Positions 37,549 through 55,074 of a DNA stretch of 64,000 nucleotides are shown piece after piece; within the stretch, counting starts at the first letter, position 1, and the number at the start of each line of letters is the position of its first letter. The notes under the pieces are model-generated. The model worked only from the letters and a program-made list of their open reading frames with translations. It had not been told where the DNA came from and searched no databases. Source of the stretch: Clostridia bacterium. GTDB lineage: Bacteria > Bacillota > Clostridia > Oscillospirales > Acutalibacteraceae. Where the stretch lies: positions 62,001 to 126,000 of the forward strand of contig JAFQRY010000014.1 of assembly GCA_017409845.1 (NCBI GenBank), written 5' to 3'. The translations under genes and the position numbers were made by a program.

Positions 37549-37558
37549 TTAGAAAAAT

Positions 37559-37588
37559 GACCCCCGAAAGAAGATTCTTTCGGGGGTC
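37559..37588 (-). terminator. terminator of the iolD-iolE operon
   Basis: Perfect GC-rich inverted repeat GACCCCCGAAAGAA / TTCTTTCGGGGGTC. On the minus strand it is followed by TCATTTTTCT, on the plus strand only by a weak tract, so it mainly serves the iol genes while also sealing the phosphoesterase transcript. Confidence 0.8.
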
Positions 37589-37600
37589 TGCTGCATTTTA

Positions 37601-38494
37601 TCAAAGTCCTGTTTTTTCGTTGATGTATTTTCTTGCCATGCATGCATATTCATAGGGATTTGCCTTGGCGGGATCCTGCTCTGCTTCAACAACAACCCAG
37701 CCTTCATATCCTGCTTCATCAAGGATGTCAAACACGGGTGTGAAGTCGAAATCGCCGTCACCGGGAACGGTGAATGAGCCTGCTCTTACGCAGTCAAGGA
37801 AGCTCCAGCCCTTTTCTTTGCCCTCGTTGATAACATCCTGACGGATGCTCTTGAGGTGAACATGCTTTACTCTGTTTACATATTTTTTGAGAACGCCGAT
37901 TGCATCCTCGCCCGAGAATGAAAGATGACCGGTATCATAAAGAAGATAAACAAGGTCGGGATCTGTGATTTCCATGAGCTTGTCAATTTCTTCTTCGGTC
38001 TGAACACCTGTGCCCATATGATGGTGAACGGTGAAATACATTCCTTTTTCTTTTGCAAGTCTGCCCATTTCATTGAAGCCCTTAGCAATAAACTCCCACT
38101 GTTCGTCTGTATAAACGGGCTTGTCACCGAAAATGCTCAGAGCTTTGCCTTGAATGGAGTTGCCCTGCTCGGAAGCACCGATAACCTTTGCTCCGAGAGC
38201 GTGAAGAAAATCTCTGTGCTTTATGAATGCTTCGATTGTTGCTTCATAGCCTTCTAAAAGAAGAAGGGATGAAAACCACGCATTGCAGATTCTGAGACCT
38301 CTTACATCAAGCTTGTGCTTGAGAGTTTCAACATCCTTGGGATATTTATTGCCGATTTCGCTGCCCTTGTAGCCGCTGAGTGCCATTTCGCTGACACACT
38401 GCTCAAATGTGTTTTCCGCACCGAGGTCGGGAAGGTCATCGTTTGTCCATGCGATAGGAGCTATCGCAAGATTTACTTTATCTTTGTTAAGCAT
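37601..38494 (-). CDS. iolE: inosose dehydratase IolE
   Basis: Second step of myo-inositol catabolism: dehydrates scyllo-inosose to 3D-trihydroxycyclohexane-1,2-dione, the substrate of IolD. The 297-residue TIM-barrel sequence has the family hallmark LAIAPIAWTNDDLPDLG and ENTFEQCVSEMALSGYKGSEIGNKYP in separate blocks, plus metal ligands in HHHMGTG, YDTGHL and HLKS. GGAGG precedes ATG 38494. It follows iolD by 18 bases on the same strand. The dehydrogenase, kinase and aldolase genes of the pathway are not in the window. Confidence 0.93.
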   Translation of the reverse strand: MLNKDKVNLAIAPIAWTNDDLPDLGAENTFEQCVSEMALSGYKGSEIGNKYPKDVETLKHKLDVRGLRICNAWFSSLLLLEGYEATIEAFIKHRDFLHALGAKVIGASEQGNSIQGKALSIFGDKPVYTDEQWEFIAKGFNEMGRLAKEKGMYFTVHHHMGTGVQTEEEIDKLMEITDPDLVYLLYDTGHLSFSGEDAIGVLKKYVNRVKHVHLKSIRQDVINEGKEKGWSFLDCVRAGSFTVPGDGDFDFTPVFDILDEAGYEGWVVVEAEQDPAKANPYEYACMARKYINEKTGL

Positions 38495-38512
38495 TTTATA
38501 TTCCTCCGTATA

Positions 38513-40594: not shown

Positions 40595-40670
40595 GATCCA
40601 TTAGCTCAGCAGGCAGAGCACTTGACTTTTAATCAAGGTGTCCGGAGTTCGAATCTCCGATGGATCACCA
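40595..40670 (+). tRNA. tRNA-Lys (anticodon TTT)
   Basis: A 76-nt cloverleaf: acceptor stem GATCCAT/ATGGATC, D-arm GCTC/GAGC, anticodon stem CTTGA/TCAAG with loop CTTTTAA (anticodon TTT at 40628-40630), variable GTGTC, T-arm CGGAG-TTCGAAT-CTCCG, discriminator A and encoded CCA. All stems pair perfectly. It reads AAA and AAG codons. It has its own promoter and terminator, so it is a single-gene unit. Confidence 0.97.
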
Positions 40671-40702
40671 AAAGCTCCGTAGCAGCAGCTGCGGAGCTTT
40701 TT
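40671..40702. terminator. terminator of tRNA-Lys, bidirectional
   Basis: AAAGCTCCG / CGGAGCTTT with an inner GCAG/CTGC stem, then TTTTTA on the plus strand. It starts directly after the CCA. On the minus strand the AGCTTTTGG tail could also stop the Agr-like kinase transcript arriving from 40724. Confidence 0.88.
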
Positions 40703-40723
40703 ATCGTTTACTTATTAATAGTT

Positions 40724-42010
40724 TCAGTTTTCAATCATTACGGTGACCACAAAAATTCCTTTAGCAGAATCGTAATCAAAAGCTATATCTCCATTATATT
40801 TTTTTACAGTTCGCTTAACACTTTTCAATCCAAAACCATGCAGGCGTTTGTTGCTTTTCGTGGTTTCCGTTATATCTCCTCTTTCGTTTAAAGGGTTACG
40901 GTCACAACTGTTTGAAATAATAATAACTGAAAAATTATTTCTGAAATCAGTTTCAAAAGAGATATGCTTTTCTTTCGCAACGCTGACAGCTTCTACGGCA
41001 TTGTCGAGAAGATTTCCGAGAATTGTCACCGTGTCATAGTATTCAACGCAGGACAGATTGTTGTTTTTAATATCAAACTCAAAATCAATCCCGTTAATCT
41101 TACATTCGGTAATATATTTATTAACAATAACATCAACAATTCTGTTGCCGCTGTGACAAACGTTGCTGTATTCCGAAAGCTTCTTAATCATTTCGGAAAT
41201 GTAGGTGTCTATCTGCGGATTAGTATTAAGATTTTTGATGGTGGCAAGATGATTTTTTGCATCGTGGGCATATATGCGAAGATTATCATTCTGCTTTTCG
41301 AGGACATCATAATAAACCATATCGGTTTTGATTTTATCCTGCTCCTGTTGAAGCAGCAGCAATTTGTTTTCTCTTTGTGCGTTAAACCGATAAGCGAAAA
41401 ATACAAGGATTGTTGCGAGAAACAACAGTAAGCTTACTCCTGCAAGAATTATCTGATTTTTATACTCTATAACTTCATTAAGACTGATATACCAGAAACC
41501 GATTACGGCAACCGAAGTTATTATCGGGAAAATGTAGAATGTAGCAGGTGTTTTAATTGTCTGGTTGTTTTTATCGGCAAATCTTGCGAGCAACATCGCA
41601 ATCAAAAAATATAATATTTTGCTTATTATTATTTCAACTGTGAGAATAATAGGCTCAGATTCATAGTTGGTTATATATGTTTCGGTCAGCGACGAAATAA
41701 CGAAAATAGTTATAAGCTCAATAATCGTTGATACTGCAACAAGAAGCAGTGAATAAAACACCGCCCGCACTTTCTTTATTTTGAAAAAACAAAGTGCAAA
41801 AGTAAGGTTTGCAACAAACGAAAAAAGAACATTGAGCCAAACCGTACTTACGGCAAAAATGTTAATCAATGCTCCGATTTCAAATAAAACTGCACCTGAA
41901 ATTATTGTTATCGGCAACGAAGTTTTTCTTTCCGACACAGAGCTGAAAAACAATGTTGAAATAAGCAGTTCAACAAAAAACGTGAAAATGAAAAGCAGGT
42001 TTAACAACAC
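40724..42010 (-). CDS. GHKL sensor histidine kinase, AgrC-like
   Basis: A 428-residue kinase. The N-terminal half is a membrane sensor with six or seven hydrophobic helices (about 4-205). A coiled linker (about 208-245) leads to H249-D-x-x-N-H254 (YAHDAKNHLATI), the phosphoacceptor motif of AgrC/HPK10-type kinases, and a GHKL ATPase with ILGNLLDNAVEA and GFGLKSVKR. GTG 42010 follows AGGAGA by eight bases; it starts two bases after its regulator ends. Such kinases usually sense peptides, but no AgrB protease or peptide precursor gene is visible in the window. Confidence 0.9.
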   Translation of the reverse strand: MLLNLLFIFTFFVELLISTLFFSSVSERKTSLPITIISGAVLFEIGALINIFAVSTVWLNVLFSFVANLTFALCFFKIKKVRAVFYSLLLVAVSTIIELITIFVISSLTETYITNYESEPIILTVEIIISKILYFLIAMLLARFADKNNQTIKTPATFYIFPIITSVAVIGFWYISLNEVIEYKNQIILAGVSLLLFLATILVFFAYRFNAQRENKLLLLQQEQDKIKTDMVYYDVLEKQNDNLRIYAHDAKNHLATIKNLNTNPQIDTYISEMIKKLSEYSNVCHSGNRIVDVIVNKYITECKINGIDFEFDIKNNNLSCVEYYDTVTILGNLLDNAVEAVSVAKEKHISFETDFRNNFSVIIISNSCDRNPLNERGDITETTKSNKRLHGFGLKSVKRTVKKYNGDIAFDYDSAKGIFVVTVMIEN

Positions 42011-42012
42011 AA

Positions 42013-42711
42013 CTACCGTCTCCTTAAATAAGCAAACCAGAATTTATGAAAGTCTGCCTGACGCCTTGAAGCAATCGGAATTCTGATTTTGTTTTCGAGA
42101 ATCAGTTCATCATATCTGTAGCTTGATACATAATGAAGATTCACAATATAAGATTTATGGACTCTGTAGAAAAATGAGTTCTGCAATATTTCGCACCAAT
42201 CGTCAAAAGATTCCCGTGTAGTATAGTTGCCGTCTTTTGTGGCGAGCGTAACCTGACGGTTGATTCTTTCAACATAAATCACGTCATCGGTCAGAATGCG
42301 TTTTTGCTCATTGTTGGCATAAAGATAAAAATCAACATAGCTTTCATCAATGTATTCCATTGCTTTGTCAAGACCCGATTTCAGTCTTGTCGGGTCAATC
42401 GGTTTTTCAAAAAATCTGAAAGCACGCAAATCCATCGCCTCATCCTGATAATCCTTGAACGATGTGACGAAAAAAATGACCACTTTGTTGTTGCGTTCTT
42501 TCAAAACTTTTGCAAGTGATATTCCGTCAATTTCATCCATTTGAATATCAAGAAATGCAAGCTGATAAACACACTCGTTTGAAATAATGTTTTGCGGATT
42601 GTATTCGGTATCAATTTCAAAGTTTATGTTTTTGCTTTTCATATACTCTTCAATATGTACTTTCAGATTATCAACATATTGAATTTCATCATCGCAGATA
42701 AGTATTCTCAT
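42013..42711 (-). CDS. LytTR-family response regulator, AgrA-like
   Basis: A 232-residue regulator: receiver domain about 1-120 with phosphoacceptor D55 (FLDIQMDE) and DD pair ICDDE, and a LytTR DNA-binding domain about 135-230 (VIYVERINRQVTLATKDG, YRVHKSYIVNLHYV). ATG 42711 is chosen because GGTGAT precedes it and MRILICDDE is the natural receiver start; the open frame extends upstream without an RBS. It is promoter-proximal in a two-gene operon with the AgrC-like kinase. Confidence 0.92.
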   Translation of the reverse strand: MRILICDDEIQYVDNLKVHIEEYMKSKNINFEIDTEYNPQNIISNECVYQLAFLDIQMDEIDGISLAKVLKERNNKVVIFFVTSFKDYQDEAMDLRAFRFFEKPIDPTRLKSGLDKAMEYIDESYVDFYLYANNEQKRILTDDVIYVERINRQVTLATKDGNYTTRESFDDWCEILQNSFFYRVHKSYIVNLHYVSSYRYDELILENKIRIPIASRRQADFHKFWFAYLRRR

Positions 42712-42727
42712 TTTTATCACCACAATA

Positions 42728-42756
42728 AGTATATCATATAATTTATTCTTCATCAA
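42728..42756 (-). promoter_or_regulatory. sigma-A promoter of the LytTR regulator-kinase pair
   Basis: On the minus strand: TTGATG (42751-42756), 17-bp spacer, TATACT (42728-42733), extended by TGA. The leader would be very short (about 10 bases to the ATG). Confidence 0.6.
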
Positions 42757-42820
42757 TCTGCATTTCGACAATAAAAATCAGCAGTTCGGCAAAACCGGCA
42801 GATAACAATGTGCGGCAATT

Positions 42821-42836
42821 CTTACAAAATCGTAAG
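42821..42836 (+). promoter_or_regulatory. inverted-repeat operator before the OmpR-type regulator
   Basis: CTTACAAAATCGTAAG: two CTTAC/GTAAG arms separated by 6 bases. It ends 10 bases before the -35 box of the regulator promoter. A near-identical copy lies at 44506-44521 before the ABC ATPase. It is probably the binding site of the regulator encoded at 42915, giving autoregulation. Confidence 0.75.
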
Positions 42837-42914: not shown

Positions 42915-43580
42915 ATGAAACAGAGAATATTGCTTGTTGAGGACGATTCGTTTCTGCGTGACGGATTGACTGAAGTTTTGCAAGGCGAAGGTTATGAGGT
43001 AATAAGTTCCGATAACTGTATGAAAGCCCGTGAGCTGATGAAGTTTTTCTCTTTCAATTTAATTATGTTTGATGTTATGCTCCCTGACGGCAGCGGTCTT
43101 GAGCTTTGCACCGAGCTTCGTGCGGCGGGCAATAATGTTCCCGTTCTGTTTCTGACTGCTTGCGATGATGAAATTCAGATTGTGCGTGGACTTGATGCAG
43201 GTGCGGATGATTATGTCACAAAACCGTTCAGGCTCCGTGAACTTCTTTCAAGAATCCGTGCATTGCTCCGCAGAACATCGGCTGTTACGGTTTACAACAG
43301 TGATGATATAACAATCGACACGCTGAATATGTCTGTGAGAAAAAACGGAGAAAATATTTTTGTGACTCCAACTGAATTTCAGATTCTTTCCGTCCTTATC
43401 CGCAACAGCGGAATTATCGTTACCCGTTCACAGCTTCTGCAGAACATCTGGGACAGCGACGGAAACTACATTGATGACAATACTCTTTCGGTTCACATGA
43501 GCCGTCTGCGTGACAAAATCGGAAGCGGTCACATTGTTACCGTAAGAGGCATCGGCTACAGATGGGAGGACTCAAAATGA
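42915..43580 (+). CDS. OmpR/PhoB-family response regulator
   Basis: A 221-residue regulator: receiver domain with D9-D11 acidic pocket (VEDDS), phosphoacceptor D53 (MFDVMLPDG) and the conserved Lys in DDYVTKPF, then an OmpR-type winged helix (about 125-220, TPTEFQILSVLIRNSG through DDNTLSVHMSRLRDKIG). AGGCAGGTGA precedes ATG 42915. It overlaps its kinase gene by four bases (ATGA). A matching operator before this gene and before the ABC operon indicates what it controls. Confidence 0.95.
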   Translation: MKQRILLVEDDSFLRDGLTEVLQGEGYEVISSDNCMKARELMKFFSFNLIMFDVMLPDGSGLELCTELRAAGNNVPVLFLTACDDEIQIVRGLDAGADDYVTKPFRLRELLSRIRALLRRTSAVTVYNSDDITIDTLNMSVRKNGENIFVTPTEFQILSVLIRNSGIIVTRSQLLQNIWDSDGNYIDDNTLSVHMSRLRDKIGSGHIVTVRGIGYRWEDSK

Positions 43581-44473
43581 TTCCGTTTCTGATTTGCACA
43601 ATCGCTGTTTTGATTGTTGCAACAACTATTTTTATCATATTGAACGCAAGAAAAAACAAGCAGATAAATAATCTCAAAGAGAATATCGAGAGCTTTATTG
43701 AAGGCGGAGAAAAGGCTGAATACAGCACCGCCGACAGCAATTTTGCACGCCTTCAGAATGCTGTTGCAGAGCTTGAAAATCTGTTGCTTCTTGAAAAAAG
43801 CAACTCAGAATCTCAGGCAAAAAGCAATGCCGATTTTGTTGCTGACATTTCACATCAACTCAAAACTCCGCTCGCGGGACTTCGACTTTACTGCGAAATG
43901 GAGCAGAGTACGACACCAACCGCTTACACAGAAAAAGAGCTTCAGCTGATTGCAAAAATGGAGAGTCTTGTTTTCAATCTTTTAAGGCTTGAGAAAATTA
44001 AAAGCGATGCATACGAAATGAAGTTTGTCGAACAAAGTCTTGATGAAATCATTGGTGAAATTATCGGTAATTTCAAACCGCTGTTTCCCGAAAAAGAATT
44101 CATTATAAACGGCACGGCAGATTTTCGGTTCGACAAGGAATGGATGATTGAGGCAATCGGAAATATTATCAAAAATGCGTGTGAACATACCGGAACTGAC
44201 GGCAGAATTACTGTTTCTGTTTCACAAAACGAAGGCTCTGTCACGCTTGTTATTGAAGATAACGGCGGCGGAGTGCCGAAAGAACAGCTTCCGCTTTTGT
44301 TCAACCGTTTTTACCGTGCGGAAAATGCCGCACCCGAAAGTGCTGGCATTGGTCTTGCAATATCAAAGGCGATTTTTGAAAAGCATCACGCAACCGTTAC
44401 TGCCGAAAACGGCAAAGACGGCTTGAAAATTAGTGTATGTTTTCCATTGATAAATGCAAATTTAAAAATGTAA
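43577..44473 (+). CDS. HisKA-type sensor histidine kinase with minimal sensor
   Basis: A 298-residue kinase with a single N-terminal transmembrane helix (about 2-22) and almost no extracellular part, then a coiled linker, HisKA domain with H93 (ADISHQLKTPLAG) and a HATPase_c domain (NIIKNACEHT, IEDNGGGVP, SAGIGLAISKAI). A kinase without an external sensor next to an ABC transporter resembles Bce-type systems, in which the transporter itself does the sensing; that analogy is inference. ATG 43577 follows GGAGGA and overlaps the regulator stop. Confidence 0.93.
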   Translation: MIPFLICTIAVLIVATTIFIILNARKNKQINNLKENIESFIEGGEKAEYSTADSNFARLQNAVAELENLLLLEKSNSESQAKSNADFVADISHQLKTPLAGLRLYCEMEQSTTPTAYTEKELQLIAKMESLVFNLLRLEKIKSDAYEMKFVEQSLDEIIGEIIGNFKPLFPEKEFIINGTADFRFDKEWMIEAIGNIIKNACEHTGTDGRITVSVSQNEGSVTLVIEDNGGGVPKEQLPLLFNRFYRAENAAPESAGIGLAISKAIFEKHHATVTAENGKDGLKISVCFPLINANLKM

Positions 44474-44475
44474 AG

Positions 44476-44500
44476 TCCGAAGATTTTCTTCGGATTTTTT
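44476..44500 (+). terminator. rho-independent terminator after the kinase gene
   Basis: Stem TCCGAAGA / TCTTCGGA with a TTT loop and a TTTTTT tail (44476-44500). It separates the two-component operon from the ABC operon, which therefore needs its own promoter. Confidence 0.9.
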
Positions 44501-44505
44501 CTTAT

Positions 44506-44521
44506 CTTACGAAATTGTAAG
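44506..44521 (+). promoter_or_regulatory. second copy of the inverted-repeat operator
   Basis: CTTACGAAATTGTAAG, matching the 42821 site at 14 of 16 positions, with both arms unchanged and the same bases continuing downstream (GTT against ATT, then TT). Its centre lies 40.5 bases before the -10 of the ABC operon, against 41.5 at the two-component promoter. Probable binding site for the regulator encoded at 42915. Confidence 0.75.
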
Positions 44522-44553
44522 GTTATTGTCACGATTTTGAAAGAATCGGGGTT

Positions 44554-44590: not shown

Positions 44591-45274
44591 ATGAATATCA
44601 TCGAATGTGTAGATTTAAGAAAAGAATACTTAAGCGGAGAAAATATTGTTAATGCAGTTGACGGAATAACCGTTGCTTTTGAGCAGGGTGAATTCTGTGC
44701 GATAACGGGACCGAGCGGCTCGGGCAAATCAACACTTCTTCATGTTCTGAGCAGCCTTGAAAATCCCACAAGCGGAGATGTAATCTATAACGGCAAAAAG
44801 CTTTCGGGTTATAACGATAACCAGCTTTCCGTTCTTCGCCGCAGACGTTTCGGATTTGTATTTCAGGCATATAATCTTGTTCAGGAACTTACGGGATATG
44901 AAAACATAGTTCTGCCCGTTATGCTTGATAAGAAAAAGGTTGACGAAGCTTATATAAACAAAGTTATTGATGTTCTCGGAATCGGAGACAGACTTGAACA
45001 TTTGCCGTCGGCACTTTCAGGCGGTCAGCAGCAGAGAATCGCCATTGCCCGTGCACTTGCCAATAAGCCGTCAATCCTTTTTGCCGATGAACCTACGGGT
45101 AATCTTGACGGCAAAAGCGGGCGTGAGGTCCTCTCTCTTCTCAAATATGTCAGCAAGGAATTCGGAATCACGCTTATTCTTGTTACCCACGATCTCAATG
45201 TTGCAGAGCAGGCAGAAAGAATCATCTCAATTGAAGACGGTAAAATTGTAAGAGATACAAAAAGCAGTATTTAA
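44591..45274 (+). CDS. ABC transporter ATP-binding protein (MacB/LolD type)
   Basis: A 227-residue ATPase that powers the FtsX-type permeases downstream. Walker A GPSGSGKST (near residue 38), Q-loop FVFQAYNL, signature LSGGQQQRIAIARAL, Walker B ILFADEPTGNLD and H-loop LVTHD are all intact. ATG 44591 (MNIIECVDLRKEY) has AAAGGAG seven bases upstream; earlier in-frame ATGs lack RBSs and overlap the promoter. It is the first gene of a four-gene operon and lies under the operator shared with the two-component genes. Confidence 0.96.
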   Translation: MNIIECVDLRKEYLSGENIVNAVDGITVAFEQGEFCAITGPSGSGKSTLLHVLSSLENPTSGDVIYNGKKLSGYNDNQLSVLRRRRFGFVFQAYNLVQELTGYENIVLPVMLDKKKVDEAYINKVIDVLGIGDRLEHLPSALSGGQQQRIAIARALANKPSILFADEPTGNLDGKSGREVLSLLKYVSKEFGITLILVTHDLNVAEQAERIISIEDGKIVRDTKSSI

Positions 45275-45288
45275 TATTCAAAATATCA

Positions 45289-45360
45289 GTGGGGCGGCTT
45301 GCCCTCAAGCCGCCGTAAAATTCATGTAAATTTCGGTGGGATGCAGGCATCCCGCCCTAC
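45289..45360. repeat. fold-back palindromic element in the ABC operon
   Basis: A 72-bp element with imperfect ends (GTGGGGCGG / CCGCCCTAC) and two internal hairpins: GGCGGCTTG-CCCT-CAAGCCGCC (45293-45314, perfect) and GGTGGGATGC-AG-GCATCCCGCC (45335-45356, one wobble). It is much richer in GC than its surroundings and fills the gap between ATPase and first permease. It looks like a REP- or MITE-type dispersed repeat; no second copy is in this window. Confidence 0.65.
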
Positions 45361-45390
45361 ATAGATGTGTTTCAAAAGAGGGGATAAAAG

Positions 45391-48165
45391 ATGAAACAGA
45401 AAAAATTAACGGTAAATAAATTGGCTTTCGGTAACCTCAAAGCAAGAAAAAAGCAATATACTTTAATGATTATCGGCATTGTTCTTGCAATGATTTTTTC
45501 ATCGGGGGTTATGTTTTTTATTTTCTGCCTGAGCTCGTCAATTCAGGAGCTTAACGATAAAAAAATCGGCAGGCAGGATGCCATACTTAATGCTTCTCAG
45601 AATTATGATATGGATTATCTGTTTGAAAGCAAAACTGTCAAAGATCACGGCTTTGCATATATTATCGGCTACGGCTACACCGATGAAAAGTCGCCCGAGC
45701 AGGGAACTTCGGTTGCAAGGCTTGATGATAAAGCGGAAGAAATATCCTATATCAAAGCAAAAGAAGGCAGAATGCCTGAGAAAAAAGGCGAAATCGCAAT
45801 TGAATACGATGCACTCAACAGACTCGGTCTTTTTTACTCTGAAATCGGTGACAAAATAACCCTTAAATTCAGAATTGCCGACGGTGAAAACTATCTTTAC
45901 GAAGAAACAGAAAAAACCTATACACTGGTCGGAAAACTGTGGGATAAAAGACCTAATATCGAATACAACTACGGCGACAGAAGCTTTTATCCCTCCGCCG
46001 TTGTCAGTAGTGAAGAAACTGTTGACCTCGGTGGAAAAGAAAACATTCTTTGTTTTCTTACCATAAAAAATGCAAATCTTCCGCTCGACAGTTTTATGGA
46101 AGCAGCAAAAAATGCAGGCATTGAAGTTGATGGAAATTTTGATAACTATAACTGTATCCTTACAACTTCAAACCGTTGGTATTTCAGCGAAAAACATGAT
46201 ATTCAGTCATCAATTATTTTAGCGATTATTCTTTCTGTTGTACTTATGATTGCTTCGTGCACCGGAATTGTTAACGCATTCAATACAAATCTTCTTGAAA
46301 GAAAAAAGCAGATAGGCATGCTTCGTGCCGTAGGTGCAACAAAACGGCAGATTATTAAAATTTTCGGAAGAGAAGCTTTCCTGATTGCTGCCGTAACAAC
46401 ACCCGTAAGCCTTGCGGTTTCATATTTTTCGGTTAAATCAATTATCGGTGCAATGGGCGATAATTTTGTGTTTATCCCCGAATGGTGGGTTCTTATTGTG
46501 TGCGGATTATTCGGTGTTGTCTGCGTTATGGCGGCGGCTTTTATTCCGCTTTATATTGCTTCAAGAGTTTCTCCCATGCAGGCAATACGCAACACCGAAC
46601 TGATGCGTAAGGTGAAAAACAAACGTATCCGTTCAAAAAAGGAATTCAATGCCCCTAAGCTTATCGCAAAAAGAAATCTTGTTTTTTACAGAAAGAAGCA
46701 AGCGGCAGTCAGCGTTATTCTTATCGCAACCATTGTTTTCACAAGCCTCGGTTTTTCACTTCTCTCATATACGTTGAAATATGATATGGGGCCGCATCAG
46801 CCGGGTGATTATCACATTCAGAACCAGACGGGTTATTCCCGTTCCGTTAATATCCGTTCAAGCAAGGGCTTCAGCGAAAACGACAGACAGGAAATTCTTT
46901 CTCATCTTTATGTTTCAGATATAGTCGGAAGAAAAGAAGCGTATGTCCATATTCTTACAGATGAATACACGGATTATATGCGTGTTGTAGATTATACAGA
47001 TTCTATAAGATTTGAAACTGACGGAGGTATGTTCAACCGCAGCTTTGAAGAATATCTGAATGTATACGGTAAAACCGAATATGAGTTTTACTCAAATATC
47101 CGCAAAGAGCTCGGATACAGTGAGCATCTTTTTCCTGCAGAAATCAGTTCGTTTGAGCTCAGCGATTTTCTGCAAGGTATGGAAAATGCTGTCTATGAGG
47201 GCGAAATCAATATTGATAAACTGAATTCCGGTGAGGAAATTGTTCTGTATGCACCTGAAAGACTCGGTTTTCACAGAGGTGATGATACATACGGCACGCT
47301 TGATATGGATAAATACGAAAGCGGTGAAGTGTTAATACACGGACTTGAAGATGAAGATATAAAAGCAACCGCTGAGCGTGATTATAAGGTCGGCGATACA
47401 ATAAAAATCAGCACTCTTATAAGTAACACTTACCCTGAGGATGATAACCATCTGCCGAAAGACACAGAAAGATATGACCGCGAAGTTAAAATTGCCGCAA
47501 TTATTACGGATTATTCTGACGGAAGCGGCGGCTTTTTCAGAGGAGATTATCTTGATTTGGTAACAACGCTTGAAGGCTTTGATAAAATCGTTCCCGATTA
47601 CCGTTACTGGTCATTTGATGTCAACCTTAATGCAGAGTGCACTCCTGAGATTGACGAGGAAATGACGGCATTTCTGAAAAGCTTCAATGCGGGAAATGAC
47701 GGCAGCGGATATTTTCATTCGAAGTTTGCAACCAATAAAGAAAATCGCAAAACCGTTGCAGGTGTTCTTGTTGCGATTCTTTCAATTGCAATTCTTTTCT
47801 TCTGCATTTGTGCAAGCGTAATCAATAATCAGCTTACCGCACAAATCAGAGAAAACAAGCGTGAAATCGGAACTCTGCGTGCGGTAGGTGCAAGTGCAAG
47901 AGAGCTTACGCAATCTTATTTCAGAGAGCTCCTTTCGATGTTCGGCTGGGGATGCGGTGCAGGCTTCGGCCTGTATACGGTAATATGGTTTGTTATGTAT
48001 CTTGTTGATAAATATATCGACTTTGGTTCAAGATATTATCCTTATCAGATATGGGAAGCAATCCTGATATGTCTTCTGCTTCTTGCAATCTGCTTTATAA
48101 ATCTTTATTCCAAGGTCAAAAAGCAGATGAAATACAGCATTGTTGAAAATATCAGGGAGCTGTAA
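45391..48165 (+). CDS. ABC permease, double FtsX type (first of two)
   Basis: A 924-residue permease built as two four-helix FtsX-type halves. Helix 1 (about 22-45), first external domain (about 46-270), helices 2-4 with LERKKQIGMLRAVGATKRQIIKIF between; then helix 5 (about 440-460), second external domain (about 465-785), helices 6-8 with RENKREIGTLRAVGASARELTQSY. The C terminus is YSIVENIREL. The N terminus (KLTVNKLAFGNLKARKKQY) is nearly the same as in the next gene, so the two arose by tandem duplication. Likely moves or senses peptides, lipids or antibiotics rather than small solutes. AGAGGGG precedes ATG 45391. Confidence 0.92.
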   Translation: MKQKKLTVNKLAFGNLKARKKQYTLMIIGIVLAMIFSSGVMFFIFCLSSSIQELNDKKIGRQDAILNASQNYDMDYLFESKTVKDHGFAYIIGYGYTDEKSPEQGTSVARLDDKAEEISYIKAKEGRMPEKKGEIAIEYDALNRLGLFYSEIGDKITLKFRIADGENYLYEETEKTYTLVGKLWDKRPNIEYNYGDRSFYPSAVVSSEETVDLGGKENILCFLTIKNANLPLDSFMEAAKNAGIEVDGNFDNYNCILTTSNRWYFSEKHDIQSSIILAIILSVVLMIASCTGIVNAFNTNLLERKKQIGMLRAVGATKRQIIKIFGREAFLIAAVTTPVSLAVSYFSVKSIIGAMGDNFVFIPEWWVLIVCGLFGVVCVMAAAFIPLYIASRVSPMQAIRNTELMRKVKNKRIRSKKEFNAPKLIAKRNLVFYRKKQAAVSVILIATIVFTSLGFSLLSYTLKYDMGPHQPGDYHIQNQTGYSRSVNIRSSKGFSENDRQEILSHLYVSDIVGRKEAYVHILTDEYTDYMRVVDYTDSIRFETDGGMFNRSFEEYLNVYGKTEYEFYSNIRKELGYSEHLFPAEISSFELSDFLQGMENAVYEGEINIDKLNSGEEIVLYAPERLGFHRGDDTYGTLDMDKYESGEVLIHGLEDEDIKATAERDYKVGDTIKISTLISNTYPEDDNHLPKDTERYDREVKIAAIITDYSDGSGGFFRGDYLDLVTTLEGFDKIVPDYRYWSFDVNLNAECTPEIDEEMTAFLKSFNAGNDGSGYFHSKFATNKENRKTVAGVLVAILSIAILFFCICASVINNQLTAQIRENKREIGTLRAVGASARELTQSYFRELLSMFGWGCGAGFGLYTVIWFVMYLVDKYIDFGSRYYPYQIWEAILICLLLLAICFINLYSKVKKQMKYSIVENIREL

Positions 48166-48167
48166 AT

Positions 48168-48277
48168 GAGCCTTCCCCTTGAGGGGAAGGTGGCGGCGAA
48201 GCCGTCGGATGAGGTGTGAAAAATAAACCTGCCACCTCATCAGTCACTTCGTGACAGCTTCTCCTCAAGGAGAAGCC
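48168..48277. repeat. MITE-like fold-back element between the two permease genes
   Basis: About 110 bp starting GCCTTCCCCTTGAGGGGAAGG and ending CTTCTCCTCAAGGAGAAGCC, with inner arms GATGAGGTG / CACCTCATC and small hairpins GGCGGCGAAGCCGTC and GTCACTTCGTGAC. From memory, sequences of this design recur in many gut Clostridia genomes. It begins within three bases of the upstream stop and ends about 20 bases before the downstream start; the RBS GGAGGAC is outside it. It carries no gene. Confidence 0.75.
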
Positions 48278-48298
48278 GTTTAACGAAAGGAGGACAAA

Positions 48299-51160
48299 AT
48301 GAAACGAAAAAAACTGACGATCAATAAACTTGCTTTCGGCAATCTGAAAGCAAGAAAAAAGCAATATTCATTGATGATTATCGGCATTATTCTTGCAATG
48401 GTTTTTACAAGTGCTGCAATGTTTTTTGCAGTATGCAATGAGGATTCAAGACAAGAAAGAAAATGGATTTCTGTCGGAAGGCAGGATTTCATTCTCAAAA
48501 AATGCGACGGCTTTGACCTTGAGAGCTTCAAACAGGATGGATCTGTTATTGACTACGCAACCTTCGAGGTTATTGCCTACGGTTATTCGCCAGATGACGA
48601 TTTTGATGACGGCATGGGCATTGCCGTTCACAATGAAAAATCAAGAGAGCTTTCGTATTTTTATTTTCTTGACGGCAGATATCCCGAAACGGAAAACGAG
48701 ATTGCAATCGAGAGTGATGCACTTTTCCGGATGAATTTATATGATGCTGAAATCGGCGATGAAATAACTCTCAATCTCCGTGCGGCAGACGGCGACGGAT
48801 TTCTTGAAAAAGAAACTCAGAAAACATACACCCTTGTCGGTATTCTCAAAGACAGAAGATATACCTATGAAGAAGGATATATGCTGAATTTCAATGATGA
48901 ATGTCCCGAATATCCCGCCGCAATTGTATATGACGGTGCTCAGGTGGAAATCGGCGGCAGACCTGCAATAATCGGGCTTGTTGATTTTAACTATGACGGC
49001 AAAACAAGCAACGAAAAATTTTATGACAGCTACAAGGAATATCTCAGGCAAAGCGGTGCAAAGCCATATCAGTCAAAGATACTTTCAAACGTAAATCCGG
49101 TTGATTATGATAATTATGTTGATGACGGTTATATTATCTACACCTCGGGTGAACATATTATGAATGACTGGGCTCTGGCTGACATGAAGCAGATAACCGA
49201 CCTCGGCACGGTGCTTGCCGCCGTGCTTGCGGTTGCATCGTGCTTCGGCGTTATCAATGCATTCAACACCAATCTTCAGGAGAGAAGAAAGCAAATCGGA
49301 ATGCTCCGTGCTGTCGGTGCAACAAAGCGGCAGATTATCACCGTTTTCGGCAGAGAGGCACTGTTGATAAGCCTTGTCTGTGCACCGCTCAGCGTTGCCC
49401 TCGGCTATTTTACAGTCCGGATTTTCTCGTATTTAATGGGTGAAATTTATATTTTCAATCCCGAGTGGTATGTTGTAATCGGTATCGGGATTCTCGGAAT
49501 TTGCTTTGTTATGGCGGCAGCACTCGTTCCTCTTTTTTATGCTGCAAGAGTAACACCCATGCAGGCTATCAGAAATACCGAGCTTGGCAGGAAAATGAAA
49601 AACAAAAAAATAAAGTCCGTAAAAGACTTTAACTCGCAAAAGCTCATTGCAAAAAGAAGCCTTGTTTTCCACCGCTTCAGGCAGGTGAGTGTGAGCCTTA
49701 TTCTGATTGCAACAATCATTGTCAGCTGCTTCTGCGTTTCGCTTCTTGAATATTACACAGAAAAAACTGAAGATGAATATGACTACAGAGTTCATTCATT
49801 CGGCTCTCCCGAATATGCTTTTGCAAACTTCTTTTATGATTTTGATTCTATGCTGAAAGAAAACGATGTTGATGATATTTCGTCAAACCGTCATGTTGTA
49901 AACGCAACGGGAAGGCTTGAATATGCGGTCAACTGGCTTGCTGACGGAGAATATCCCGGATTCCTCAAGCTTGCCGAATTTAACAGAGCCGTAAACTACG
50001 ATAAATATGAACACGGTTTCGGCGAGGGTGAAAATCTTAAACCCGAGGAAATTGTTGAATACTATGAAAACGGACCTGAGTATTCTGAGGAATACCTTGA
50101 ATTCAGAGAAGCTGTGGATTATGAGGCTGAGCCTTTTGCAGCAAAAATTCAGACTGACAGCGAAAAAAACATACTTTCTCTCGAAAAATATATTCTTGAC
50201 GGCGAAATTGATATCGGCAAGCTTGATTCGGGCGAAGAAGTTATTCTTGTTGTGCCTGAAGAAATAGCTTACAGTATAAAATATAACTCCGACGGCTCAT
50301 ATGCAAGCTACGGTCATGATTATATCACCGACGGATATTATGCAAACTACAGGTCGGGATACACCGAAATTCTTCGTGAAAAAATGCCGTTCAAAGCAGG
50401 CGAAAACATAAAATTGAGTATGCTGTTTAATTATGATAAAAAAGAAAACAAAATTCTTGAACACGAAAAAGCCTATGACTATGAATATGAAAGAAACGAC
50501 AGGGAAGTGAAAATCGGTGCAATCATTTCAAAGTATCCGTTCAGCGGTTTCTGGAACAGATTGCCTATGTTCTTAACCACAAATCAGGGCGTATCGGAAT
50601 TCGGCTGTCCGCTTCGCTATGAATTTATTGACATAAATACAGTTGATGAAATGACACCTGAAATCGAAGAAGAAATTGAAGCTTTCTTCCGTGCGGCTGA
50701 GTATGAATTTGATTCAAATTACCGTATGCAGGAGCTTAAGAAAACTGAAATGAAAACTCTTGTTGCAGGTATTTCATCAATAATTCTTCTTCTTTTCTGT
50801 ATTGCGGCAAGCCTTGTCAACAATGCACTGACATCAAAAATCCGTGAAAGTAAGCGTGAAATCGGAACCCTGCGTGCAGTTGGTGCAAGTGCAAAAGAAC
50901 TGACCATGATATATATTCATCAGCTTCTTTCAATGTTCGGAATGGGATGCGGTCTTGGCTTCGGATTTTATACGGTTGTATTTTTCTCTGCAAAGCTTAT
51001 ATGTAAATACGGTGTTCATATTATGTTCCCGTTTGAATTCCGTGTTATTACAGCTGCTGCAATATGCCTTGTGTTATTTGCGATTTGCTCACTCAATCTT
51101 TATTCAAAAATCAAAAAGCAGATGAAGTACAGTATAGTTGAAAATATCAGGGAGTTATAA
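48299..51160 (+). CDS. ABC permease, double FtsX type (second of two)
   Basis: A 953-residue paralogue of the preceding permease with the same eight-helix, two-external-domain plan: LQERRKQIGMLRAVGATKRQI in the first half, RESKREIGTLRAVGASAKELTM in the second, and the same C-terminal YSIVENIREL. The membrane parts are close to the neighbour while the external domains have diverged strongly (this one is richer in Tyr, Glu and Asp), as expected if the pair forms a heterodimer with ligand-specific external surfaces. AAAGGAGG precedes ATG 48299. Only five bases separate it from the following anchored protein. Confidence 0.92.
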   Translation: MKRKKLTINKLAFGNLKARKKQYSLMIIGIILAMVFTSAAMFFAVCNEDSRQERKWISVGRQDFILKKCDGFDLESFKQDGSVIDYATFEVIAYGYSPDDDFDDGMGIAVHNEKSRELSYFYFLDGRYPETENEIAIESDALFRMNLYDAEIGDEITLNLRAADGDGFLEKETQKTYTLVGILKDRRYTYEEGYMLNFNDECPEYPAAIVYDGAQVEIGGRPAIIGLVDFNYDGKTSNEKFYDSYKEYLRQSGAKPYQSKILSNVNPVDYDNYVDDGYIIYTSGEHIMNDWALADMKQITDLGTVLAAVLAVASCFGVINAFNTNLQERRKQIGMLRAVGATKRQIITVFGREALLISLVCAPLSVALGYFTVRIFSYLMGEIYIFNPEWYVVIGIGILGICFVMAAALVPLFYAARVTPMQAIRNTELGRKMKNKKIKSVKDFNSQKLIAKRSLVFHRFRQVSVSLILIATIIVSCFCVSLLEYYTEKTEDEYDYRVHSFGSPEYAFANFFYDFDSMLKENDVDDISSNRHVVNATGRLEYAVNWLADGEYPGFLKLAEFNRAVNYDKYEHGFGEGENLKPEEIVEYYENGPEYSEEYLEFREAVDYEAEPFAAKIQTDSEKNILSLEKYILDGEIDIGKLDSGEEVILVVPEEIAYSIKYNSDGSYASYGHDYITDGYYANYRSGYTEILREKMPFKAGENIKLSMLFNYDKKENKILEHEKAYDYEYERNDREVKIGAIISKYPFSGFWNRLPMFLTTNQGVSEFGCPLRYEFIDINTVDEMTPEIEEEIEAFFRAAEYEFDSNYRMQELKKTEMKTLVAGISSIILLLFCIAASLVNNALTSKIRESKREIGTLRAVGASAKELTMIYIHQLLSMFGMGCGLGFGFYTVVFFSAKLICKYGVHIMFPFEFRVITAAAICLVLFAICSLNLYSKIKKQMKYSIVENIREL

Positions 51161-51165
51161 TATCT

Positions 51166-52461
51166 ATGAAAAAATATATATTGTTTATATTATGTGTTTT
51201 TCTTTGCCTTGCACCTTTAACCACGGCTTTTGCCGAGGAAACGCCCTCACAGCCTAAGGTCATGGTTACGGATTATAAAACCGACGGAGAACTCAAAGCA
51301 GGTAATACGGCGAAAATATCAATCACACTCACAAACAAAAGCAAAACCGATTATGTTGAAAATATGAAGCTGACATTCTCGGATCCGAGCGGCGATATTG
51401 TTCCCGTCAGTGTTGCTTCAGGCTTTGTTGACAAACTCGGAGCAAAAAAATCCGTCACATGGGATATTGATATCAGTGTTTCGGAATCGGCAAAAGACGG
51501 TAACCATGCCGTTAACATAATGTGCGAATTTGAAAGCAAATCCGGAGGAGGGTCATCATCAGATGTAATTAATCTTGATGTAATCGGTAAAAAAGAAACC
51601 GAAACCGCTGCCATACCTCAGGATACCTCTCAGCCCCGTCTTATGGTTACGGATTATACAGTTGAAAACGGCAGTATCATTCCGGGTGAAAGCAGAAATG
51701 TGAGCATTACAATCAAAAACACAAGTCCTTCAAAGGCAGTAAGCAACATAAAGCTTTCTCTTGCCGATGAAAGCGGTGAACTCAAAACGGACGGTATGGG
51801 CACCGCTTATGTCAAGAGCATTTCAGCAAACGGCATTTATGTGTGGACTGTCGGACTGACTGCCGTTCACACGGCAAAAACAGGTGAGCATCCGCTGACT
51901 CTTTCAATGGAATATGAGGACTCAAATCATACCGGTTATACCGCAAGCGATGTAATCAGGGTCAGCGTAAGGCAAAGCGTTATGCTGAAATATGATTCTG
52001 CAAGACTCCCGTCAAAATCAATTCAGGGCGAAACCGTAACCGTCAGCATAAATCTTATGAATACGGGCAAAAGCACAATTCATAATGCAATGATTGATGT
52101 TGATGTCAAAGGGCTTGACAGCGGCGGCACGGTGCTTGTCGGCGAAATCACCCAGGGAGAAAGCAAGGCGGGAAATGTAAATCTGCGTGTGAGCAACGAA
52201 ATTCTCGGCAAGGTTGAAGGTAAAATAACAATCAGTTATGAAGATGATTTCGGCGGTGCCTACACCGAAACAGTCGACGTTTCAACCGTTATTGAAGAAA
52301 AAGTTATCAAAGCCGATAGCGAAGAAGAGGAAGAAAAGAAAAATCCTCTGTGGTGGCTGTTTATGCTTGTCGGAGCAATCATCGGTGGAGCACTCGGCTT
52401 CGGAATACCGTATGCAATCCGATCTGACAAGCAGCGAAAAGAGGATGAAAAGAGGCTCTGA
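51166..52461 (+). CDS. exported Ig-repeat protein with C-terminal membrane anchor
   Basis: A 431-residue protein with a signal peptide (about 1-23), three Ig-like repeats of roughly 110 residues (starting near MVTDYKTDGELKAGN, LMVTDYTVENGSIIPG and MLKYDSARLPSKSIQG), a charged Glu-rich stretch (EKVIKADSEEEEEKKN), one transmembrane helix (about 393-415, WWLFMLVGAIIGGALGFGIPYAI) and a basic tail. The repeats resemble COG1361/CARDB-type domains seen in exported proteins next to MacB-type transporters. Close coupling to the second permease (five-base gap) suggests an external partner of the transporter. Specific function unknown. Confidence 0.82.
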   Translation: MKKYILFILCVFLCLAPLTTAFAEETPSQPKVMVTDYKTDGELKAGNTAKISITLTNKSKTDYVENMKLTFSDPSGDIVPVSVASGFVDKLGAKKSVTWDIDISVSESAKDGNHAVNIMCEFESKSGGGSSSDVINLDVIGKKETETAAIPQDTSQPRLMVTDYTVENGSIIPGESRNVSITIKNTSPSKAVSNIKLSLADESGELKTDGMGTAYVKSISANGIYVWTVGLTAVHTAKTGEHPLTLSMEYEDSNHTGYTASDVIRVSVRQSVMLKYDSARLPSKSIQGETVTVSINLMNTGKSTIHNAMIDVDVKGLDSGGTVLVGEITQGESKAGNVNLRVSNEILGKVEGKITISYEDDFGGAYTETVDVSTVIEEKVIKADSEEEEEKKNPLWWLFMLVGAIIGGALGFGIPYAIRSDKQRKEDEKRL

Positions 52462-52542: not shown

Positions 52543-52578
52543 ATTGACAAATTAAGGTTGATTCAAGGAGGGAATGCT

Positions 52579-55074
52579 ATGAATAATGCATCAAAAGGAA
52601 TGCTCAGACGGATAATCTCTGCGATTCTTGCTGTTGTAATTTGTTTTTCGGCATCAGTCAGTGTGTTTGCGGCGTCCGATCTTATCTCGGAAACAACAAC
52701 GCAGAAATCCGTTGAAATTGCAAAGAAAATTGAATCCGAAGGAATTGTTCTTCTTGAAAACGAAGATGATATTCTTCCTCTGAAGAATAAAAAGGTCAAC
52801 GTTTTCGGTGCTGCTTCCTGTTCAATTGCATTTGCGGGAGCTGCAGGCTCGGGTGCTGTGCGTTCATCGGATGCAATCGGTTTTTATGATGCTCTTGATA
52901 ACGCAGGGATAGAGTATAATAAAAATATTTATAATCTTTATGCAGCTCACACGGGAACGATGTTTGATCTCGGCTTTCTGAGCTATGTCATTACCGTGCT
53001 CAAGCAGTTTTTTGGCGGCGGTCAGTCTGAAATGCCGATAAACAGAATTAGCGAAAAGAAAATGGAAGAGGCTGTTGCATTTTCGGATACTGCAATCATT
53101 GTTATCGGAAGAGTGGGAACAGAGATGAAGGATCTCAGCGTTGAACAGCTCAACCTGAGTGACGATGAAAAGAAAATGATTGACAGGGTTTGTGAAGAAT
53201 TTCCGAATGTTATTGTTGTGTTCAACATTTCAAATATTATGGATATGTCATGGCTTGAGGATTATGACAGCATCAAGGCTTCCATGATAATGTGGCTTCC
53301 AGGTGAGGTCGGAACAGACAGCGTCGGCAAGGTGCTTTCAGGTGAGGTGAATCCCTCGGGAAAGCTTGTTGATACAATTTCTTACGATATTGAAGATCAC
53401 CCCGCATCCGAAAATTTCGGAAACTATATGTATAAGGGCGTTTTTGGAATTCCGAAGTATTTTGTTAACTACAACGAAGGAATTTATGTCGGCTACAGAT
53501 ATTTCGAAACCTTCGCACCCGAAAAAGTAATGTATCCCTTCGGTTACGGTCTTTCATATACCGATTTCGACTGGACAGTAAAATCCTTTGATTATAACCG
53601 TGAAGAAATAACCGTAAAGGTTAATGTGAAAAACACGGGCGAGCGTGCAGGTAAGGATGTTGTTCAGCTGTATTTCTCGGCACCTTATTATGAAGGCGGT
53701 GTCGAGAAGAGTGCAATTGAGCTTGCTGCATACGCAAAAACAAAAGAGCTTGCTCCGGGTAAGAGCGAAACTCTTGAAATTTCCTTTGATATTGAAGACA
53801 TGGCATCCTATGATTCCGCAAAGGAGCAGGCATGGGTGCTTGATAAGGGTGAATATAAAATTCATATTGCTCACGATGTGAGAAATATTGAAAAAACTTA
53901 TAAGTATTATGTTTCCGAAAAGAAGGTTTACAAAACCGATTCCGCTTCGGGCAACGAAGTCAAAAATCTTTTTGAGTTTGCCGAAGGCGACCTCACATAC
54001 TTCTCACGCTCAGATCCCGACGGAACATATCCCGCACCGCCCGAAACCTATATGGCAACAACTGCTGTTCTCAACAGCGATAAAAGACCGGATCCTGTAA
54101 AAGAAGGGGAGGCACCGAAAACGGGCGTTCGCTACAAGGACGGAGTAATAACTCTCAGCGATGTGGCGGCAGATGAAAGCCTATGGGATGCTTTCCTTGA
54201 CCAGCTTACGGTCAGCGAAATGATAAGCCTTGTATCCGACTGCGGTTACGAAACAACGGGTCTTGACAGGCTCGGTATTCCCGGCACATCCGACAATGAC
54301 GGTCCCTCATGCATAAAGGGCAGCGGCGGACTTCTTTATACCGATTGCGGTCTTGCTTTTCCCGTCGCAACTGCTCTTGCCTGCACATGGAATGATGAGC
54401 TTGCAGAAGATTTCGGTGATATAATCGGTGAAGAAGGCGTTCAGCTCGGAACACATGTCTGGTATGCACCCGGCTGCAATCTTCACCGCAGTCCTCAGGG
54501 CGGCAGAAATAACGAATATTATTCAGAAGACCCGCTTCTTTCGGGTAAGATGTCAGCGGCAGTAACAAGAGGTGTTCAGTCCCACGGTATTATTGTTACC
54601 GTAAAGCACTTTGCTGCCAATGACCAGGAAACCAACAGACAGTCAAACGGACTTTATACATGGCTCAGCGAGCAGTCGCTGCGTGAGCTTTATCTTGAAC
54701 CGTTTGAGATTTCCGTGAAAGAGGGCGGAGCAAAAGGAATCATGTCTGCCTATAACAGAATAGGCGATCAGTGGTGCGGCGGAAGCAAGGCACTCCTCGT
54801 TGACCTTCTGAGAAACGAATGGGGCTTCGACGGCTTTGTTATAACCGATGCAAGCATTGACCTGACCGGTGAGGGCTATCTTGACCCTGCACTTGCGGTT
54901 TATGCCCGAAACAGCGGAATACTGACCATGCTTTATGTTATTTCCGCTCCACAGACCATTATTTCGATGAAGCTTGCATATGCAAAAGACCCGATAGGCT
55001 TCGGCAATGCGTTAAGACTTTGCGTTTATGATCTCTGCCGTATGAAGATTCAGTCAAATGCCTTTGAAGGCTGA
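52579..55074 (+). CDS. secreted GH3 glycoside hydrolase with permuted domain order
   Basis: An 831-residue exported GH3 enzyme in which the usual order is reversed. After the signal peptide (about 1-31) comes the alpha/beta sandwich (about 50-285, GIVLLENEDDILPLKNKKVNVFG), then a fibronectin-type domain (about 310-440, MYPFGYGLSYTDF, NVKNTGERAGKDVVQLYFS), then the (beta/alpha)8 barrel (about 540-800) with K676-H677 (TVKHFAANDQE) and nucleophile D757 (GFVITDAS). Permuted GH3 enzymes are known in ruminococci. An unusual hydrophobic stretch LGFLSYVITVLKQFFGGG (near residue 135) interrupts the sandwich domain. AAGGAGG precedes ATG 52579. The GDPD gene follows after 60 bases. Confidence 0.88.
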   Translation: MNNASKGMLRRIISAILAVVICFSASVSVFAASDLISETTTQKSVEIAKKIESEGIVLLENEDDILPLKNKKVNVFGAASCSIAFAGAAGSGAVRSSDAIGFYDALDNAGIEYNKNIYNLYAAHTGTMFDLGFLSYVITVLKQFFGGGQSEMPINRISEKKMEEAVAFSDTAIIVIGRVGTEMKDLSVEQLNLSDDEKKMIDRVCEEFPNVIVVFNISNIMDMSWLEDYDSIKASMIMWLPGEVGTDSVGKVLSGEVNPSGKLVDTISYDIEDHPASENFGNYMYKGVFGIPKYFVNYNEGIYVGYRYFETFAPEKVMYPFGYGLSYTDFDWTVKSFDYNREEITVKVNVKNTGERAGKDVVQLYFSAPYYEGGVEKSAIELAAYAKTKELAPGKSETLEISFDIEDMASYDSAKEQAWVLDKGEYKIHIAHDVRNIEKTYKYYVSEKKVYKTDSASGNEVKNLFEFAEGDLTYFSRSDPDGTYPAPPETYMATTAVLNSDKRPDPVKEGEAPKTGVRYKDGVITLSDVAADESLWDAFLDQLTVSEMISLVSDCGYETTGLDRLGIPGTSDNDGPSCIKGSGGLLYTDCGLAFPVATALACTWNDELAEDFGDIIGEEGVQLGTHVWYAPGCNLHRSPQGGRNNEYYSEDPLLSGKMSAAVTRGVQSHGIIVTVKHFAANDQETNRQSNGLYTWLSEQSLRELYLEPFEISVKEGGAKGIMSAYNRIGDQWCGGSKALLVDLLRNEWGFDGFVITDASIDLTGEGYLDPALAVYARNSGILTMLYVISAPQTIISMKLAYAKDPIGFGNALRLCVYDLCRMKIQSNAFEG

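Follow-up and report, generated by a model that had tools for sequence, protein, structure and literature searches.

Background

The described systems that come closest to the locus reported here combine an ABC ATPase with a permease of the FtsX superfamily. YbbAP-TesA, a Type VII ABC system of E. coli (PDB 9GE6-9GE8), is built around YbbP, an internally duplicated permease of 10 helices that carries two ATPases as a single chain, and has a soluble esterase as partner; the cited sections of its description mention no two-component system (PMC12646458). In the BceAB-BceRS modules, the permease BceB has 10 helices and one large ectodomain, located between helices 7 and 8, and the cited part of the description includes no adaptor (PMC5985334). 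The MacAB-type pumps, and YknXYZ and SpMacAB of Gram-positives, have a single operon for the ATPase, the FtsX permease and a partner anchored outside the cytoplasm, according to that source (PMC5985334).

Organization of the locus

The module was studied in a stretch of 64,000 nucleotides from a Clostridia bacterium (assembly GCA_017409845.1, contig JAFQRY010000014.1), to which we refer as the window. The features are:

42821-42836, + strand: inverted repeat CTTACAAAATCGTAAG, putative operator for the response regulator, upstream of the regulator gene and 33 nt before TATAAT
42915-43580, + strand: OmpR-type response regulator, 221 aa (Pfam Response_reg and Trans_reg_C)
43562-44473, + strand: histidine kinase, 303 aa (HisKA and HATPase_c), one N-terminal membrane helix and no external domain
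44472-44498, + strand: terminator-like hairpin 3' of the kinase gene (consensus scan), its sequence kept in most close relatives compared
44506-44521, + strand: inverted repeat CTTACGAAATTGTAAG, putative operator for the response regulator, before the transporter operon
44591-45274, + strand: ABC ATPase of the MacB/LolD/YbbA group, 227 aa from ATG (Pfam ABC_tran)
45391-48165, + strand: P1, fused FtsX-FtsX permease, 924 aa, 8 membrane helices and two ectodomains (Pfam, hydropathy)
48299-51160, + strand: P2, fused FtsX-FtsX permease, 953 aa (Pfam; mean model pLDDT 79.8; top fold match YbbP)
51166-52461, + strand: Ig protein, 431 aa, with signal peptide, three Ig-like domains and a C-terminal membrane helix with charged tail

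The composition given in the earlier note, i.e. an ATPase, two paralogous eight-helix permeases, an Ig protein and a two-component system with a sensor-less kinase, was borne out by open reading frames, Pfam, hydropathy and structure models. The genes follow each other on the plus strand in the order regulator, kinase, ATPase, P1, P2 and Ig protein (ORF list), the Ig gene starting 5 bases past the P2 stop; the ORF list also holds an alternative ATPase frame of 245 aa that starts from TTG at 44537. P1 and P2 each contain two FtsX stretches (Pfam) and are 41% identical to each other. The top NCBIfam scores of the ATPase were those of LolD and MacB, both below cut-off, and its PDB matches were MacB, PsdA, LolD, YbbA and BceA.

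Directly 5' of the module, after a tRNA-Lys gene, lies a minus-strand pair encoding a GHKL kinase and a LytTR regulator (40595-42771), which resembles agr-type sensing genes. The GH3 protein encoded downstream (52558-55074) has its domains reversed, the Pfam GH3 C-terminal domain (63-334) standing ahead of the GH3 N-terminal domain (599-766), and its gene did not recur in the neighbour tables of the relatives. The spacers before P1 (45275-45390) and between P1 and P2 (48166-48298) are palindrome-rich and are missing from the related genome G021, where the spacers measure about 6 and 30 bp. The idea that the P1-P2 palindromic spacer is a dispersed repeat was discarded, as its 23-base core (≤ 2 mismatches) occurs a single time in the own genome.

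Conservation and distribution of the module

A scan with the alignment of the Ig protein recovered 61 loci, all from uncultured or metagenome assemblies and mostly labelled Clostridia, Oscillospiraceae, Ruminococcaceae or Eubacteriales. In 55 of the 61, the Ig gene is preceded by a permease ORF in the same orientation, at a distance of no more than about 500 bp; five of the gaps measure 370-501 bp and some apparent overlaps reflect over-extended ORF starts. The six exceptions comprise two contigs broken off within the Ig gene (L049, L087), a remnant of 131 residues (L093) and three distant relatives (L097, L099, L100) in which the order is ATPase-Ig-permease. Where an ATPase was in view (44 loci), the kinase was found in 36 and the regulator in 35 cases; several loci without them are cut by the locus or contig end, and in L053, L071 and L090 the two-component system is absent from view despite room upstream.

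The genome samples gave a similar picture. Among 60 relatives, the own genome included, the permease was recovered from 10 (E up to 1e-20) and the Ig protein from 14, and all 10 genomes with the permease have the Ig protein. In an even sample of the order (394 genomes), a full-length permease (E 3.3e-225 or better) and a strong Ig match (E 2e-93 or better) occurred in the same seven genomes, again including the own genome. In a sample of the class (391 genomes) the permease was found at E up to 1e-100 only in the genome of the window, and one other genome (G613) gave an Ig match at E up to 1e-60, which is part of an ATPase-Ig-MacB operon. Copy numbers per genome in the order and class samples are lower bounds, no more than two permease and four Ig candidates having been scored in each. 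Loss of the Ig gene from the side of these permeases in relatives had been named beforehand as what would speak against the module; because of the 55 of 61 loci and the shared seven of 394 genomes, this objection falls, and the expected co-occurrence of the two-component genes with the transporter genes was likewise recovered in most loci with an ATPase in view. A conserved resistance or cargo gene beside the module was absent from the neighbour tables of the relatives.

Several further observations concern the surroundings of the modules. In genome G002, a C-terminal Ig remnant of 131 residues (L030:9951-10764) is found next to tRNA-Lys and to genes related to those at 36112-40366 of the window; this is the place where the window carries the module, and G002 has a complete module elsewhere. 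Similar ORFs occur beside or between modules in G027 and G032 (L025:3494-5092, L028:3106-4773), which, from a motif, we take to be serine recombinases. A small ORF of 127 aa between the kinase and ATPase genes is common to L054 (at 5182) and L056 (at 1667) and has no match to the module proteins of the window.

Fold and number of the permeases

Hydropathy gave 8 segments for P1 and several overlapping segments for P2; in a second pass over the relatives, 63 of 71 permeases had 8 segments, seven had 7 and one had 9. The P2 model has eight long membrane helices and ectodomains at roughly 60-290 and 489-806. Its top PDB match, YbbP (E 7.5e-17), extends over nearly the whole chain, with a TM-score of 0.42-0.43 by query length and an rmsd of 12-13 A, values that indicate likeness of topology, not close superposition; MacB, LolC/E and BceB follow. 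The profile matches of the permease in the PDB were MacB, YtrF and PsdB.

Of the 44 loci with an ATPase in view, 25 have one permease ORF, 16 have two, 2 have three and 1 has four; these counts include fragments and become 26, 16, 1 and 1 after correction by hand, since in L085 and in L071 a single permease is split into two pieces. The split genes (L071:7095-9880, L085:7136-9988) are apparently broken, and one of the four permeases of L070 lies 5' of the ATPase. Because the permease resembles YbbP, a single-chain pseudodimer, and one-permease operons are the commonest (25 of 44 as counted), the heterodimer of P1 and P2 that the earlier note had envisaged is judged unnecessary from gene counts and fold comparison; two permease genes would not by themselves imply one.

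The Ig protein

Pfam recognised NEW3 (PF10633) and CARDB (PF07705) in the Ig protein, and hydropathy a signal-peptide-like segment and a C-terminal segment (394-418). In the model, a signal helix is followed by three domains of beta-sandwich type and, at the C-terminus, by a helix (396-430); its mean pLDDT is 83.7 and its pTM 0.44, so that the domain arrangement is uncertain. In the module family the mean pairwise identity is 0.63 for the membrane helix and 0.60 for the tail, and 0.35, 0.47 and 0.55 for the Ig domains, of which the first has only half occupancy across 37 proteins. SH3_3-type domains bind peptidoglycan, and a bacterial SH3_3 domain was matched in four of the 37 relatives; a hydrolase or enzymatic domain was found in none of the 37 scanned.

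More distant members came from the order sample, in all its 28 weaker matches (E about 1e-38 to 1e-15), and in one case from the class sample. In 25 of these 29, the Ig gene sits between an ABC ATPase gene and one for an FtsX (MacB-like) permease of 431-520 aa; in three (L039, L116, L130) the ATPase adjoins the Ig gene and the contig ends before the next gene, and in one (L117) there is a weak ATPase match on one side and no FtsX permease. The 25 placements suggest that an adaptor-like position is general to this protein group, in two transporter architectures, and the earlier proposal that the Ig protein takes the place of an adaptor gains support from them. The protein is encoded with an ATPase and an FtsX permease and is predicted to be exported and anchored, as an adaptor would be. 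Homology to MacA/HlyD was rejected, as Pfam finds Ig-type domains instead; a search against PDB sequences gave no match at E up to 0.01, and adaptors were absent among the 50 matches listed for the fold search with the model. In Clostridia the group appears to be a common substitute for MacA-type adaptors, and Pfam recognises its members only as CARDB/NEW3 proteins.

The two-component system and its putative operators

The sensor-less kinase BceS has two membrane helices and depends on the transporter for sensing peptide antibiotics, and the regulator of BceAB-type modules acts on the promoter of the transporter. The kinase in the window has a single hydropathy segment (residues 1-31), and one segment was likewise found in 36 of 37 relatives, the exception (L040) being cut at its 5' end by the contig. 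Neither the BceAB-type permease plan nor the two-helix kinase plan fits the module, with its eight permease helices, two ectodomains and one predicted kinase helix.

A CTTAC-N6-GTAAG inverted repeat precedes the regulator gene and, behind the terminator-like hairpin, the ATPase gene. Searched without mismatches in the 2.53-Mb genome, CTTACNNAATNGTAAG occurs at these two sites and nowhere else, and its reversed control pattern occurs once. Sites that deviate from a consensus in no more than 3 of 16 positions lie upstream of the ATPase in 38 of 42 relatives and of the regulator in 20 of 33; the consensus was picked from such sites, and the relatives do not count as independent of each other. When these regions were shuffled in a simple way, 3 mismatches were reached in 0.1% (ATPase) and not once (regulator). 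One of the four relatives that miss the ATPase site, L047, has it inside an over-extended ORF. In a search 24-37 nt past the ATPase site, the -10-like hexamer with the best fit (0-2 mismatches) begins at 32 nt in 35 of 38 cases, and TATAAT stands at 33 nt from the regulator site in only 9 of 20. The earlier note had tied the two-component system to the transporter, and a putative operator that is shared by the two genes and conserved argues in its favour.

Apparent exchange of permeases on a constant chassis

The window and G021 are 99% identical in the regulator, 96% in the kinase and 88% in P2, and 52% in P1; G021 and G002 are 97% identical in P1 and 70% in P2, and the two modules of G016 are 93% identical in P1 and 38% in P2 (43% by another aligner). 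A comparison of 42 operons yielded 21 pairs with ATPases ≥ 97% and Ig proteins ≥ 80% identical, and in 16 of these near-identical-chassis pairs one or more permeases are without a counterpart above 55%. The pairs overlap in their members and are no independent samples, several stand at 51-54% and unequal permease numbers are included. In L068 and L073, for instance, regulator, kinase, ATPase and Ig protein are 96%, 88%, 97% and 95% identical, and the permease 40%. Average-linkage clustering at 55% gave 35 permease types. L074, L077 and L081, whose 3' flanks share 83-94% nucleotide identity and which therefore occupy one chromosomal site, carry a second permease of type T30, T11 and T30, respectively. 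Type combinations recur (11-29-32, 11-32, 29-30, 29-11, 29-31, 29-31-32 and 32 alone), and T11 stands first in L069, L080 and L089 and second in L077 and L083.

Breakpoints were read from gapped alignments of the swapped genes. DNA identity is mostly 0.8-1.0 outside these genes and in their first 30-110 and last 30-65 nt, and about 0.2-0.6 inside; the junctions are in frame and located in the gene ends. They are clearest in L068/L073 and the G016 pair; L077/L081 has shorter kept ends, and its 3' flank is only 0.53-0.77 identical for about 200 nt, then rising. Third-position identity at identical residues among operons of the window's genus was 0.61 in the first 40 codons, 0.73 in the last 23 and 0.51-0.52 inside, and against other genera 0.46, 0.52 and 0.43-0.45, respectively; the excess at the 5' end is thus genus-specific, whereas values at the 3' end are slightly higher in both comparisons, an effect that could be due to constraint.

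From these alignments, the permeases appear to have been swapped between genomes as nearly whole genes on a constant chassis, and recombination through the conserved gene ends is the simplest reading of the swaps; perhaps the swapping serves different envelope-attacking compounds. Positive selection on the ectodomains was rejected as the source of the diversity: in ten close permease pairs omega was 0.05-0.34 in every region. This purifying selection within a type indicates that the types are stable proteins, not runaway variants. We put forward, tentatively and with slightly less than even confidence, that these are ABC sensing machines which evolve by cassette exchange: permease types that are old, and each conserved in its own right, would enter, leave and replace one another by recombination through their conserved gene ends, in operons of one to four permeases that share one near-invariant ATPase, an Ig-repeat relay protein and a sensor-less two-component switch for their read-out. 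If true, cassette exchange lets specificity change without re-evolving the signalling.

Functional interpretation

Gene set and order, co-conservation, permease exchange and operator conservation are read from sequence, and the stoichiometry, docking mode, signalling route, regulator action at both sites and class of substrates given below are inferred. The locus may be a Type VII ABC machine (MacB/YbbAP/BceAB-like) that regulates itself, combines exchangeable permeases with constant chassis parts (regulator, sensor-less kinase, ATPase and Ig anchor), and senses and removes envelope-active compounds, a reading on which we are evenly divided. Each eight-helix permease would be a fused pseudodimer that presumably binds two copies of the ATPase to form a complete transporter, and for that reason P1 and P2 would make two machines of different specificity with one shared motor. 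With its membrane helix and tail docked on the constant parts of the complex and its rod reaching towards the wall, the Ig protein would fill the role of a MacA-type adaptor. The state of the permease would be relayed within the membrane to the kinase, and the regulator, via the two CTTAC-N6-GTAAG operators, would turn up its own gene and the ATPase-permease-Ig operon. Its probable task would be the sensing and removal of compounds that act on the envelope (antimicrobial peptides, antibiotics, lipids), the type of permease deciding which.

In favour of this model, next to the co-conservation, adaptor-like position, fold, permease-exchange and operator results given above, are the Ig membrane helix and tail, which are the best-conserved parts of the Ig protein, and the one-helix kinase in 36 of 37 relatives; against it stand the un-Bce-like single helix of that kinase, the loose match to YbbP, which has 10 helices, the loci with no two-component system in view (L053, L071, L090), the lack of a conserved resistance or cargo gene next to the module and the uncultured origin of all loci from the scan with the Ig alignment. 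The exchange of permeases provides a natural swap experiment on a question raised by Bce-type modules, namely how a sensor-less kinase can read out a transporter. Since the chassis stays similar while a whole permease is replaced, the signal read by the kinase must reside either in the permease's conserved membrane parts and ends or in the helix and tail of the Ig protein, which leaves few candidates, all open to testing. The range of permease types might also reveal what compounds these gut bacteria encounter.

Rather unlikely, in our estimate, but the strongest of the alternatives, is an export or trafficking machine (LolCDE- or YbbAP-like), in which every type of permease would let go of an endogenous cargo of its own (a lipoprotein, peptide or lipid), to be received or displayed at the wall by the Ig protein, and the two-component system would report envelope load, not antibiotics. 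The fold matches (YbbP, then MacB and LolC/E), the best ATPase scores with LolD and MacB models, even if below cut-offs, and the purifying selection on the types, as expected of dedicated cargo machines, all agree with such a role; the neighbours displayed, however, hold no conserved cargo gene, and wholesale permease swaps on one chassis would be easier to explain with exogenous ligands. An FtsEX-like regulator of wall remodelling, with permeases and Ig protein mechanically activating cell-wall enzymes and the types matching different partners, agrees with the FtsX superfamily membership and the SH3_3 domain of four in 37 Ig relatives, but is improbable given Ig proteins devoid of hydrolase or enzymatic domains among those scanned, neighbour tables devoid of a conserved hydrolase and a sensor-less two-component system that would not be expected. 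That the exchange is an artefact, either of chimeric metagenome joins between near-identical modules or of fast permease divergence, is suggested by the uncultured origin of all loci from the Ig-alignment scan and by contigs that do break at near-identical modules (G027), but is just as improbable, because identities of counterparts within a chassis group fall in separate bands in several pairs (about 38-44% versus 77-97%), divergence within types is slow and constrained, the junctions are in frame in gene ends, and T11 takes different array positions in several assemblies.

Comparison with known systems

Returning to the envelope-sensing model, the module shares with the Type VII (MacB-superfamily) systems the FtsX-type domain, the ectodomain after the first helix and the MacB/LolD-type ATPase. 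Transporters of this superfamily use their ATP cycle to power work outside the cytoplasm (mechanotransmission). YbbAP-TesA resembles it in having two FtsX halves and two ectodomains per chain, a separate ATPase and an extracytoplasmic partner, as far as the cited sections describe (PMC12646458). In contrast to that system, the module here has 8 helices, a membrane-anchored Ig partner, a two-component system and permease arrays; ORFs and Pfam gave no TesA-like gene within it. With BceAB-BceRS it has in common that an FtsX-superfamily permease, an ATPase and a two-component system are encoded together and that the kinase lacks a large external domain, according to the part of the source cited (PMC5985334); it differs in its 8 helices, two ectodomains, Ig protein and one-helix kinase with a HisKA match. 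This comparison, by analogy with the system as partly described in that source (PMC5985334), supports the signalling logic and not membership, since helix number and ectodomain plan differ. Compared with MacAB, YknXYZ and SpMacAB, which have a like operon plan, the partner here is an Ig-repeat rod and not a MacA/HlyD protein by sequence or fold.

A further likeness is to the ATPase-Ig(CARDB/NEW3)-MacB-like operons of Clostridia, for which we know of no name: they have a related Ig partner, an FtsX permease and, in fitting operons, an ATPase that is 40-47% identical. They differ in their single FtsX unit of 431-520 aa, the order ATPase-Ig-permease and Ig proteins of 449-1298 aa, and a regulator/kinase pair of another type (kinases of 449-901 aa) is in view in 8 of 26. 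The earlier note knew of no described system with exactly this composition; this holds in so far as the full-text literature yielded no characterised system of the same composition (a search weak for subscription journals, which are mostly outside its coverage), although the parts are of known kind. Judged by its sequence, the module is a conserved and apparently self-regulated Type VII ABC system that joins parts of known kind.
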